Shown: positions 60,190-63,823 of the stretch, piece by piece
Numbering within the stretch: position 1 is the first letter of the stretch
Layout: each line of letters begins with the position of its first letter
NCBI GenBank assembly: GCA_026392465.1
Contig: JAPLCA010000026.1
Span: 186,001 to 250,000, forward strand
Reading direction: 5' to 3'
Length of the DNA stretch: 64,000 nt
Source: Propionibacteriales bacterium
Lineage (GTDB): Bacteria; Actinomycetota; Actinomycetes; Propionibacteriales; Nocardioidaceae
Position numbers and translations under genes: made by a program
The notes under the pieces: model-generated
The model's database searches: none
Seen by the model: only the letters and a program-made list of their open reading frames with translations
Told to the model about the DNA's origin: nothing

Positions 60190-61206
60190 CTACGACGGGG
60201 GCCGGGCCGAGGTGCTGCGCGGGATGAGCGTCGGGGCGACGACGACGTGACGGACAGGGGCACCCGCCCGCGTCTCGTCCAGGAGCTCGAGGGTGGCGGC
60301 CGCGATCTGGTCGAACGGCACTCTCACGGTCGTGAGCGGCCGGGGCAGGCGGGCCGAGACCGGAACGTCGTTGTAGCCCACGACCGAGACGTCCTCCGGC
60401 ACCGAGAGCTCGAGCGCCTGGGCCGCGGCCAGCACTCCGATCGCCGTGTTGTCGTTCACCGCGAACACCGCCGTGGGGCGGTCGGGCGACGCCAGCACGC
60501 GACGCGCGACGTCCTCGCCGGACTCCATGCTGAACGCCGACTCGTGCACCAGGTCGCCGACGTCGGTGACCCCCACCTCCGCCAGCGCACGGCGGAAGCC
60601 GGCCTGCCGCCCGACGGCGCTCGACGCGTACGACGGACCCGCCACGAGCGCGATGCGACGGTGCCCGAGGTCGACGAGGTGCCGGGCCGCGAGGTAGCCG
60701 CCGAGCTCGTCGTCGCCCACCGCGGACGGGGTGCTGCCGTCCGCGCGCAGCGCAAGGACGACCGGGACGCCGCGGTCGCGCAGACGTGCGGTGAGGTCGT
60801 CGCCCAGGCGGGCCGTGGTGAGCACGAGGCCGTCGACCCGCTGGTCGAGCAGCCGCTCGACGGCCTCCTGCTCGGTGGCCGGGTCGTCGTCGGTGGTGGC
60901 GACGATGGCGAACTGGTCGCGTCGGGCGCAGGCGGCCGCGACCTGCTCGAAGGTCATCGCCATGACGGTGTCAGTGAGGCGGGGCACCAGGACGCCCACC
61001 GTGCGGGTCTGCTGACGACGCAGGGCCGAGGCGAACCGGTCGCGGCGGTAGCCGAGACGCTGGGCGGCGTCGCGCACCCGCTGGGCCGACGCGCTGTGCG
61101 ACGTCGGAAGCCGCTCGTCGAGCACACGGGAGACGGTCGACTTCGAGACCCCGGCCTCCCGTGCGACGTCGAGGATCGTGGGCGGACGCAGCGGCGACTC
61201 GGTCAC
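60190..61206 (-). CDS. LacI family transcriptional regulator
   Basis: 338 residues from a GTG. Helix-turn-helix TILDVAREAGVSKSTVSRVL, hinge helix region and a sugar-binding-type effector domain (VDGLVLTTARL; AVFAVNDNTAIGVLAAA; SVVGYNDVPVSARL). Divergent from the Nramp-like gene. Near-identical GGGAACGTTCCC operators precede both downstream structural genes, and a variant precedes its own start, so it should control all three. Confidence 0.9.
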   Translation of the reverse strand: MTESPLRPPTILDVAREAGVSKSTVSRVLDERLPTSHSASAQRVRDAAQRLGYRRDRFASALRRQQTRTVGVLVPRLTDTVMAMTFEQVAAACARRDQFAIVATTDDDPATEQEAVERLLDQRVDGLVLTTARLGDDLTARLRDRGVPVVLALRADGSTPSAVGDDELGGYLAARHLVDLGHRRIALVAGPSYASSAVGRQAGFRRALAEVGVTDVGDLVHESAFSMESGEDVARRVLASPDRPTAVFAVNDNTAIGVLAAAQALELSVPEDVSVVGYNDVPVSARLPRPLTTVRVPFDQIAAATLELLDETRAGAPVRHVVVAPTLIPRSTSARPPS

Positions 61207-61318: not shown

Positions 61319-61369
61319 TTGACAGCGTGTTCCCCGTCACACACGATGGGAACGTTCCCGTGAACGTTG
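61319..61369 (+). promoter_or_regulatory. Promoter and double LacI operator of the Nramp-like gene
   Basis: TTGACA (61319-61324) followed by GCGTG, -10-like CACGAT after 17 bp, then the palindrome GGGAACGTTCCC (61348-61359) and a second partial site GAACGTTG whose centre is 12 bp further. The same layout precedes the lyase gene at 62821. Confidence 0.7.
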
Positions 61370-61482: not shown

Positions 61483-62748
61483 ATGACCGACACCGCACCC
61501 GTCCGCACCGACCCGGTGGGGCCCGCCGACGAGCAGCCCCGCCGGTCCCGCCGCGGGCTCACCGCCACCTTCGCCCTCATGGGGCCCAGCTTCATCGCCG
61601 GCGCCTGGCAGTTCGGGCCCGGCAACCTCGCGTCGGCCGTGCAGGCCGGCAGTGCCCACGGCTACACCCTCATCTGGGTCATCGCCCTCTCCACGGTGCT
61701 CATGATCGCCTTCACCGACATGAGCGTGCGCCTCGCCGTCGTCTCCCCCGGCTCCCTGGTGCAGACGATCAAGGACCGTCTCGGCCGTCCCGTCGGCGCC
61801 GCGGCCGGCATCGGCGTCTTCCTCATCAGCCTCTGCTTCTCCGTCGGCAACGCCGTGGGCTCCGGCCTCGGGTTCTCGATGCTGTTCGGCGGGTCGCCAA
61901 CGCTGTGGACGCTCGGCTGCACGATCGTCGTCGCCGCCGTCGCCTGGGCTCCGAACTACTACAAGCTGTTCGAGCGGGCCATGCTCGGCATGGTGGTGCT
62001 GATGGGCATCGGCTTCGTCCTCGGCGCCTTCCTCTCCCAGCCCGACTGGGTGTCGGCGGCCGACGGCCTGTTCCCGACCCTGCCGTCGGACGCCGGCCTG
62101 CTCGTCATCGCTCTCGTCGGCACGAACTTCTCCATCAACGCCGCCTTCTTCACGGGCTACGCCTCCCGCGAGCGCGGCCTGAGGGCCGAGGACTACCGCA
62201 CGACGACGATCGCCGACACCATCCCCGGCATCCTCGCCCCGGGCATCATGACCGCACTGGTGATCGTCACCGCCGCAGCCGCCCTGCAGAACACGGGCAC
62301 CGCCGCAGCCTCGTTCCCCGAGCTCGCGAACGTCCTGCGCCCCGTGGCCGGCGACTTCGGCAGCGTGCTCTTCGGGCTCGGCTTCTCGGCCGCCGCGTTC
62401 TCCTCGATGGTCGCCAACGCGACCGCCGGCGGCACGCTGCTGTCCGACGGCCTGGGCCACGGCAACACGATGGAACGGCTGGGCGTGAAGATCGGCATGC
62501 TCACCGTGCTGACGTTCGGGCTCGTGGTCACCCTGGTGGCGAGCGGCTCGCCCGTCGAGTTGATCATCACCGCGCAGGCCCTCACCGTCGTCGTGGCACC
62601 GATGCTCGGGCTGCTGCTGTTCGTCATGACCACCCGGCGCGACCTGATGGGCCGTTTCGTGAACCGGTGGTGGCAGAACGCGCTGGGCGTCGCGGGCCTG
62701 GTGGCCATCTTCGCCCTCTGCTACCGACTGCTGACCACCCTGCTCTGA
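61483..62748 (+). CDS. Nramp-superfamily transporter lacking the canonical metal-binding motifs
   Basis: 421 residues, about 11 membrane helices. The helix 1 motif reads FGPGN (44-48) where metal-transporting Nramps have DPGN, and the helix 6 region reads GTNFSINAAFF (213-223) where MPH is expected. Both the Asp and the Met/His metal ligands are therefore missing, although the surrounding pattern (MGPSFIAGAWQ; ASAVQAGSAHGYTLIW) is clearly Nramp-like. Under LacI control with a lyase, it may carry an organic substrate rather than Mn2+ (inference). ATG preceded by AGAAGGA. Confidence 0.85.
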   Translation: MTDTAPVRTDPVGPADEQPRRSRRGLTATFALMGPSFIAGAWQFGPGNLASAVQAGSAHGYTLIWVIALSTVLMIAFTDMSVRLAVVSPGSLVQTIKDRLGRPVGAAAGIGVFLISLCFSVGNAVGSGLGFSMLFGGSPTLWTLGCTIVVAAVAWAPNYYKLFERAMLGMVVLMGIGFVLGAFLSQPDWVSAADGLFPTLPSDAGLLVIALVGTNFSINAAFFTGYASRERGLRAEDYRTTTIADTIPGILAPGIMTALVIVTAAAALQNTGTAAASFPELANVLRPVAGDFGSVLFGLGFSAAAFSSMVANATAGGTLLSDGLGHGNTMERLGVKIGMLTVLTFGLVVTLVASGSPVELIITAQALTVVVAPMLGLLLFVMTTRRDLMGRFVNRWWQNALGVAGLVAIFALCYRLLTTLL

Positions 62749-62758
62749 CCGTCCTCCG

Positions 62759-62793
62759 GTCGGCCCCGCTCCTCGCACAGGAGCGGGGCCGAC
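62759..62793 (+). terminator. Terminator after the Nramp-like gene
   Basis: GTCGGCCCCGCTCCT-cgcac-AGGAGCGGGGCCGAC, a perfect 15-bp stem, so the lyase gene needs its own promoter. Confidence 0.8.
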
Positions 62794-62820: not shown

Positions 62821-62878
62821 TTGACAGCGTGACCACGGTCGCTCACACTGAGAACGGGAACGTTCCCGCGAACGTTCC
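62821..62878 (+). promoter_or_regulatory. Promoter and double LacI operator of the lyase gene
   Basis: TTGACAGCGTG (62821-62831), -10-like CACACT (62844-62849) after 17 bp, then GGGAACGTTCCC (62856-62867) and GAACGTTCC (62870-62878), centres 12 bp apart. Same order and spacing as at 61319-61369. Confidence 0.7.
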
Positions 62879-62908: not shown

Positions 62909-63823
62909 ATGACGCTCGACCTGCGCGGCCTCACCCCCGCTCCCGTCACCCCGTTCACCCGCGACCTCGAGGTCGACTACGACGCCGTGGCGTCGCTGAC
63001 CCGCTGGTACGCATCCATCCCCGGCATCACCGGACTGGTCTACCTCGGCCACGCCGGCGAGGGCACCTACCTGACCCAGGAGGAGCAGGTCCGCGTCATC
63101 GAGGTCGCCGTCGAGAACGCCGGCGAGGTCCCCGTGATCGCCGGCATCACCGGCGAGGGCGACAAGGTCGCCGGCCTGGAGGCCAAGCGGGCGATCGACG
63201 CGGGCGCCTCGGCCGGCCTGCTCTACCCGTCGCACGGCTGGCTGCGCTTCGGCTACCAGCAGGGCGCCCCGCAGGAGCGGTACCGGATCGTCCACGAGGA
63301 GTCCGGTCTGCCGCTCATCCTGTTCCAGTACCCCGACGCCACCAAGGCCAGCTACGACCTGGAGACCCAGCTCGAGATCGGCGCCCAGGCCGGTGTCTTC
63401 GCCACCAAGAACGGCGTGCGCAACATGCGGCGATGGGACACCGAGATCCCGGTGCTCCGCCAGGAGCTGCCCGACCTGCAGATCCTCTCGTGCCACGACG
63501 AGTACCTCCTGCACACGATGTTCGACGTCGACGGCCTGCTGGTCGGCTACGGGGGCATCGCCCCGGAGCTGCTCGTCGAGCTGATCGCCGCCGGCAAGGC
63601 CCAGGACTACCCCGCCGCCCGCGCTCTGCACGACGCGCTGCTGCCCGTGACGAAGGCGGTGTACCACCGCGGCTCCCACATGGAGGGCACCGTGGCGCTC
63701 AAGCTGGCACTCGTCGAGCGCGGCAAGCTCGAGCACGCCGCGGTCCGTCCTCCGCTGCTCGACCTCGCCCCCGAGGCGCAGGGCGAGATCAGCCTCGCGC
63801 TCAAGCACGCCGGGATCATCTGA
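62909..63823 (+). CDS. DapA-superfamily lyase/aldolase with altered active site
   Basis: 304 residues, TIM-barrel of the dihydrodipicolinate synthase / N-acetylneuraminate lyase superfamily. The Schiff-base lysine is Lys167 in VFATKNGVRN. The usual catalytic YNVP segment reads FQYP (139-142), so the catalytic Tyr is replaced by Phe, and the usual GTTGE loop is GHAGE (47-51). It is thus not a true DapA; a 2-keto acid aldolase or dehydratase acting on an unusual substrate is likely. It shares LacI operators with the Nramp-like transporter. Confidence 0.85.
   Translation: MTLDLRGLTPAPVTPFTRDLEVDYDAVASLTRWYASIPGITGLVYLGHAGEGTYLTQEEQVRVIEVAVENAGEVPVIAGITGEGDKVAGLEAKRAIDAGASAGLLYPSHGWLRFGYQQGAPQERYRIVHEESGLPLILFQYPDATKASYDLETQLEIGAQAGVFATKNGVRNMRRWDTEIPVLRQELPDLQILSCHDEYLLHTMFDVDGLLVGYGGIAPELLVELIAAGKAQDYPAARALHDALLPVTKAVYHRGSHMEGTVALKLALVERGKLEHAAVRPPLLDLAPEAQGEISLALKHAGII

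Follow-up and report, generated by a model that had tools for sequence, protein, structure and literature searches.

An Nramp-like protein with a replaced metal site is predicted to carry an organic solute and to share a two-gene LacI regulon with a DapA-type lyase

The window (the whole stretch of DNA that was analysed, 64,000 nucleotides of contig JAPLCA010000026.1 of a Propionibacteriales bacterium) contains near its end a gene for an Nramp-like transporter of 421 amino acids (61483..62748, + strand; ORF translation, Pfam and alignment), whose motifs are FGPGN in TM1 and NFSIN in TM6. The initial annotation had placed a LacI-type regulator and a lyase beside it, and both are confirmed: a divergent gene with a GTG start codes for a LacI-family regulator of 338 amino acids (60190..61206, − strand; ORF list and Pfam), with a helix-turn-helix domain (PF00356, 47.1 bits) and a periplasmic-binding-like domain (PF13377, 124.3 bits), and on the other side lies the gene of a DapA-superfamily lyase-like enzyme of 304 amino acids, here called DapL (62909..63823, + strand; Pfam and alignments). 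The transporter gene is preceded by a promoter-like element, TTGACA-17-CACGAT (61319..61347, + strand), and by a tandem operator-like site, GGGAACGTTCCCGTGAACGTT (61348..61368, + strand). Similarly, a promoter-like element TTGACA-17-CACACT (62821..62849, + strand) and the operator-like site GGGAACGTTCCCGCGAACGTT (62856..62876, + strand) are found upstream of dapL. Both −10 elements were assigned by eye, and both operators come from a pattern search of the genome. In both regions TTGACA is followed, after a spacer of 17 bases, by a weak −10 (by eye) and next by GGGAACGTTCCCG(T/C)GAACGTT. In the gap between the transporter gene and dapL, a 14-bp perfect inverted repeat with the loop CGCAC (62760..62792, + strand; seen by eye) forms a terminator-like element, which has no T run.

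The two motif stretches of the translated transporter read ...AWQFGPGNLAS... and ...VGTNFSINAAFF.... The protein matches the Pfam family Nramp (PF01566) with 235.8 bits, for a cut-off of 29.8, over residues 49-395 and positions 1-356 of the 357 of the model. It passes the broad NCBIfam model Nramp_1 (89 vs 50 bits), misses the cut-off of the MntH subfamily (140.1 vs 430 bits), and has Nramp-family proteins as its only matches in searches of solved structures. The canonical MntH of the same genome, which is retained elsewhere (G000:C38:165726-166772), and those of related genomes served as the reference for the alignment of the site. In TM1, Gly45 replaces the Asp of DPGN; in TM6, Ser217 replaces the Met, Asn219 the His and Thr214 the Ala; in TM3, Asn123 replaces the Glu, and the acidic positions of that helix are occupied by S120 and N123. 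The ligand signature is DxxN + A/CxxM in canonical proteins and GxxN + TxxS here. The initial annotation read these substitutions (FGPGN for DPGN, FSIN for the MPH segment) as the loss of both metal-ligand motifs. The substitutions are as described and the statement holds for D, M and H; it does not hold for N, as Asn48 of DPGN is kept, together with Gln365 of TM10, and the word "lost" presumes a direction of change. We have counted these two remaining residues of the old site against an organic carrier.

A shift of Asp, Met or His residues that would rebuild the metal site was sought in the alignments of the clade, and no conserved Asp, Glu, His, Cys or Met that could play this role was found in TM1 or TM6. 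The polar and aromatic residues that are fixed in these two helices are W42, Q43, N48, T214, N215, S217 and N219, so to judge from its residues the site seems suited to binding an uncharged or anionic solute through hydrogen bonds. The frame is open and conserved, which rules out a pseudogene, and the occurrence of the same three genes in independent genomes rules out an assembly artefact.

A scan of a collection of named species returned 131 relatives, the best 80 of which were analysed; with six sequences obtained earlier, they make 86 rows and 84 distinct sequences, because two pairs come from the same contigs (L004/L055 and L006/L056). QFGPGNL is present in 84 of the 85 rows that have letters at this place (82 of 83 distinct sequences), the remaining row having GFGPGNL, and S217, N219 and N123 are invariant in all 86 rows (84 distinct). 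The two peptide patterns used in the scan sit elsewhere in the protein, so these counts are not built into the search. The motif substitution, fixed across 86 rows (84 distinct), is not a matter of chance.

The hosts of these best 80 of 131 relatives belong for the most part to the Actinomycetota and in some cases to the Alphaproteobacteria (Rhizobium, Brevundimonas, Paracoccus). One of the records, L075, is titled Planococcus sp. and has 67% G+C in this stretch, a value which we take to be at odds with that genus; an error in the name or in the contig is probable. Within the genus of the window, 4 of 49 genomes have an ortholog of the transporter. In the order sample, 6 of the 293 genomes have a relative with an E value of 1e-35 or below: two belong to the genus of the window, two have the full set of three genes (G600 and G627), one (G665) has a relative of 38% identity and no DapL, and one (G684) has a C-terminal fragment. 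The phylum sample (396 genomes) gave 10 matches at 1e-40, among which only that of the window itself is of the FGPGN type; the other nine are 28-31% identical and have a GPGT or GPGS motif. DapL is found at 1e-50 in 3 of these 396 genomes, its own included. The small number of matches in the three samples means that the system is patchy. The G665 protein (L053, 7521-9847) has FGPGS and FSIV motifs and a divergent LacI-type gene; judging by its motifs and neighbours it may form a further sub-branch with another partner. In G684 (L054, 8995-9663), the carrier is reduced to a C-terminal part of 222 residues and looks truncated, and carboxylase- or decarboxylase-like genes are found nearby (by eye).

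The three genes are strongly linked. Among the best 80 of 131 relatives, a DapL homolog is found in 78 loci, the two misses (L124 and L126) being contig ends, and a LacI homolog in 77, so that the survey of homologues for linkage to LacI and DapA-like genes, proposed in the initial annotation, gave a strongly positive result. When 85 neighbourhoods were clustered, no other gene family recurred around the transporter in more than 8 of them, while the same clustering recovered DapL in 74 and LacI in 67; neither a metal gene nor a dehydratase, kinase or dehydrogenase recurs with the triad in these neighbourhoods. As a control, 36 other Nramp loci (canonical, NRMT-like and PxpT-like) have neither DapL nor this LacI within up to 1.5 kb on each side (0/36). 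The linkage and this control rule out a chance neighbourhood. The usual gene order, in most of the 78 loci, is LacI-dapL-transporter; the order LacI-transporter-dapL is that of the genus of the window, and the transporter and dapL genes are convergent in L051 and divergent in L052. A remote LacI-DapL-carrier triad, of about 26-32% identity, is seen in L136 and L137 (G156 and G284), with LGPGS and SSASV motifs and no tandem operator.

With up to three mismatches allowed, the operator occurs at exactly the two places described above in the 3.69-Mb genome (each also matches the other strand), and shuffled windows gave 0 matches. Among the 70 intergenic regions between LacI and dapL in other loci, 67 contain the half-site AACGTTCC. 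The strict tandem operator lies upstream of dapL in 68 of 78 loci and is absent there in the other 10; it is found in none of the 78 dapL-transporter gaps, and at three other places in 1.53 Mb. L052, L053, L136 and L137 lack it, although L052 has the triad nonetheless. Since the operator precedes the transporter gene and dapL alone in the genome of the window, the predicted regulon consists of two genes, those of the carrier and of the lyase, and includes no metal gene. The main text of a survey of LacI regulons (PMC4052901) contains neither Nramp nor AACGTT, and our literature search returned no paper on the FGPGN clade, the triad or the regulon; in PMC12445098, Nramp designates a mouse genotype.

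DapL resembles dihydrodipicolinate synthase (DHDPS, DapA) in that it belongs to PF00701 and keeps the position of the Schiff-base lysine: K167 aligns with the DHDPS lysine and is invariant in 44 rows. The residues that matter in DHDPS include the tyrosine of YNxP, a substrate-binding arginine and the threonine of TTGE. In alignments, all three positions are replaced in DapL, unlike in DHDPS: the tyrosine by F139 (Y141 lies two residues further on), the arginine by A144, and TTGE by HAGE (H48/A49). DapL also scores below the cut-off of the NCBIfam dapA model (112.8 vs 206.15 bits). The possibility that it is the housekeeping dapA is ruled out by the presence of a separate PF00701 gene in the genome, with 262.5 bits. 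On this sequence basis, we conclude that DapL is an enzyme distinct from DHDPS. Searches of solved structures return DHDPS-family matches for DapL, YagE among them, and NCBIfam models indicate no substrate for DapL, for two remote relatives or for the MFS and TRAP partners described below.

Loci that have DapL and another transporter are informative as to what the Nramp-like protein does. Orthologs or homologs of DapL turned up in 67 plasmid records, and 17 loci, the basis for what is said of DapL partners outside the Actinomycetota, were chosen for reading; several of them are close kin (one, L146, came from the transporter search rather than from the DapL search). An MFS transporter is present in 13 of the 17 (L140-L144, L148 and L150-L156), a TAXI-TRAP system in two (L145 and L157), and an Nramp-like carrier in one (L146, Neorhizobium petrolearium); the partners in L153 and L155 were assigned by tblastn, because the annotation is incomplete or absent. 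In the last locus, on a Microvirga ossetica plasmid (L149, 4995-10770), caprolactamase-like genes (HyuA/HyuB) come after the DapL ortholog and the annotation shows no transporter within 5 kb, which may hint at a link to a lactam or an amide. Ten of the 17 loci have a LacI protein that is 54-64% identical to that of the window, and all ten have the strict operator; the other seven have five LysR and two distant LacI proteins (29-33%), and the strict operator in none. On Klebsiella and Rahnella plasmids, two operators and two MFS genes flank LacI-DapL (L143, 7346 and 8917; L148, 6380 and 7918), so that the regulon there may include a second transporter.

The MFS of the plasmid DapL loci is found beside the Nramp-type carrier in 0 of 80 loci; three other MFS genes (26-29% identity) are kilobases away in Nramp-type loci. 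Mapping the partner labels onto a tree of 39 selected DapL rows requires 8 changes, and the starred branches force at least three (Nramp) or at least four (MFS) changes of partner. The active-site motifs of DapL, compared in ten rows, are nearly identical within each main group, whatever the partner. On the remote DapL branch, the partners are an MFS (Priestia), a TAXI-TRAP system (Paenisporosarcina) and a divergent Nramp-like protein with LacI (G156 and G284). That the same lyase, often with the same LacI and operator, goes with an MFS or a TAXI-TRAP system argues that the Nramp-like protein fills the slot of an organic-acid importer. The best match of six MFS proteins (5 loci) is the aromatic acid/H+ symport model, at 213-240 bits for a cut-off of 418.55, so that their own substrate is also a guess.

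We therefore propose, with high confidence, that the protein is an Nramp-type carrier of organic solutes, whose gene and dapL form a predicted LacI regulon of two genes. Our confidence is slightly higher still for the narrower statement that an organic compound rather than a metal is carried; this compound is probably a carboxylate, and it is possible, as a tentative assignment only, that it is a 2-keto-3-deoxy sugar acid or a related 4-hydroxy-2-oxo acid in particular. The initial idea of an Nramp-related branch that carries an organic compound is thus supported by the residues of the site, by the linkage and by the exchange of partners; the sugar acid or keto acid that it named is a tentative substrate. 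In the mechanism that we infer, the LacI-family repressor would sense the compound or a derivative of it and leave the tandem operators, and its release would free two genes, for an importer of what is likely a carboxylate and for DapL. The latter would be a lysine (Schiff-base) enzyme whose probable role is to cleave, dehydrate or deaminate the acid brought in by the carrier, toward central metabolites. DapL may act directly on this acid, because no dehydratase, kinase or dehydrogenase recurs nearby, and for want of a recurring dehydratase the imported compound may already be an acid of the 2-oxo-3-deoxy type.

It is improbable that the carrier is instead an exporter of the product of the lyase or of a toxic intermediate. 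The direction of transport cannot be read from the sequence and the MFS partners could export, but a TAXI-TRAP system with a binding protein replaces the carrier in two loci (L145 and L157), and TRAP systems with a binding protein are importers. Porin genes downstream of the MFS gene in four Gram-negative loci also argue for import.

That the protein imports a divalent metal (Mn2+, Mg2+ or Fe2+) through a rebuilt site, and supplies it to the lyase or to the cell, is marginally less probable than export. Both Pfam and the broad NCBIfam Nramp_1 model name a metal transporter, Asn48 and Gln365 are retained, EcoDMT mutants with NRMT-type sites, in which the Asp is kept, still carry Mn2+ (PMC8806188), and Mn2+ import is reported for YcsG (PMC10448178). 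On the other hand, no conserved residue stands in for the ligands in TM1 or TM6, and the Asp is described as universally conserved in SLC11, its mutation strongly compromising transport by EleNRMT (PMC8806188). Moreover, the predicted regulon is limited to one carrier and one lyase, other transporter families replace the carrier in loci with an orthologous DapL, and the genome has its canonical MntH. The transport of a metal-organic complex (of the metal-citrate type, for example), whose organic part would be the substrate of the lyase, would reconcile the Nramp ancestry with the linkage, but it is very unlikely, since no metal gene recurs with the triad and the MFS and TAXI-TRAP loci, from their annotation, give no pointer to metal complexes.

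If the protein is indeed an organic-solute carrier, it joins PxpT as an independent second example of an organic compound being carried by an Nramp-type protein; non-metal relatives of Nramp are not wholly new, PxpT having been linked to 5-oxoproline in 2026 (PMC13274462). The natural replacement of the carrier by other transporter families is internal evidence for an organic substrate, and the analysis also points out an uncharacterised lyase and its LacI regulon. The relatives are annotated as "Nramp family divalent metal transporter". As the broad NCBI model passes the carrier and the relatives so annotated, it is probable that the clade as a whole bears a wrong annotation and is counted as metal uptake.

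A broader proposal, which we find slightly easier to doubt than to accept, is that a large part of the Nramp-related outgroup forms a family of carriers for organic acids and that metal transport is a later invention. Nramp-related groups that lack the metal motifs have been described, most of them as uncharacterised (PMC12873925, PMC10606218), and entirely so for groups other than NRMT-like and MntG according to PMC12873925. The same source places these motif-less proteins as basal and paraphyletic to canonical Nramps, so that a later gain of the metal site is possible, and it has been proposed that the outgroup may connect Nramps with carriers of substrates other than metals (PMC4072509). 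If this is true, the branches of the family would include the FGPGN clade, with a new DapA-type enzyme whose active site is replaced, the 5-oxoproline carriers, and haloarchaeal relatives that lie beside genes of the sugar-catabolism type; metal transport would have arisen on an organic-solute carrier and would not be the original trade of the family. With the carrier of the window, the origin of metal selectivity in Nramps becomes testable.

In a transporter tree of 38 rows, drawn rooted on the canonical group and with long branches flagged, the FGPGN clade (99/99) is separate from the canonical and NRMT-like groups. It is joined with the haloarchaeal relatives, L053 and the remote triad at 100/99. 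Six PxpT-like rows (97/92), which stand for the PxpT branch in this tree, form a group apart from the clade, next to the FGPGN and haloarchaeal grouping with weak support (81/64). The haloarchaeal relatives, on plasmids (L147, L158 and L159), have VGPGS and TFSIA motifs; in the three of six records that were read, the carriers adjoin Gfo/Idh/MocA, FAH, sulfatase or heparinase II/III-type genes, a context which suggests the uptake of sugars or uronates by another branch. The group is called PxpT-like on the strength of a single row, L038, whose carrier adjoins a PxpA-like gene judged by eye; others adjoin HyuA-like and YcsI-like genes. We take the neighbours of the L039 and L045 carriers, seen by eye, to be YcsI/DUF1445-like genes and, in L039, also a HyuA-like one. 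Among the 80 loci of the clade, a PxpA-like match is found in one (L113, 42%), kilobases off and on the far side of the LacI gene.

The carrier of the window shares with canonical Nramp/MntH the PF01566 match, the Asn of TM1 and the Gln of TM10, and differs from it by the absence of the Asp, Met, His and TM3 acidic residues. The NRMT proteins (EleNRMT, Mg2+) are also PF01566 relatives and, like it, have a Thr at the TM6 Ala position, but they keep the TM1 Asp in their signature DxxG-TxxA/T (PMC8806188), which is GxxN-TxxS in the window. The PF01566 proteins termed "G-motif" or "orphan outgroup" resemble it in that their metal site has diverged and the residues of the proton pathway are absent (PMC12873925, PMC10606218). 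Regarding gene content, sugar-acid regulons contain a transporter and a dehydratase beside a DapA-family aldolase (PMC12445098). The xylonate xynABC genes of Salmonella and the YjhI and YfaX regulons of E. coli have in common with the triad a regulator, a transporter and a DapA-family aldolase; as reported in that source, these modules have a dehydratase and IclR-type regulators, with an MFS transporter in Salmonella, whereas the triad has LacI, no recurring dehydratase and an Nramp-like carrier.

Another parallel is with PxpT and YcsG (MntG), which are Nramp-superfamily proteins tied to catabolic genes, with a link to a catabolic regulator in Corynebacterium glutamicum. Growth on 5-oxoproline depends on PxpT in this organism (PMC13274462), while Mn2+ import is reported for its B. 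subtilis relative YcsG, which has 50% identity to it (PMC10448178). The comparison is made through the PxpT-like relatives. These relatives have, as the carrier of the window, a Gly at the Asp position and an Asn at the TM3 Glu position, but they are only 28-31% identical to it and mostly have GPGT and VPYN where it has GPGN and SIN. The partners also differ: in print, those of PxpT are pxpABC and the GntR-type PxpR, whereas those of the carrier of the window are DapL and LacI.
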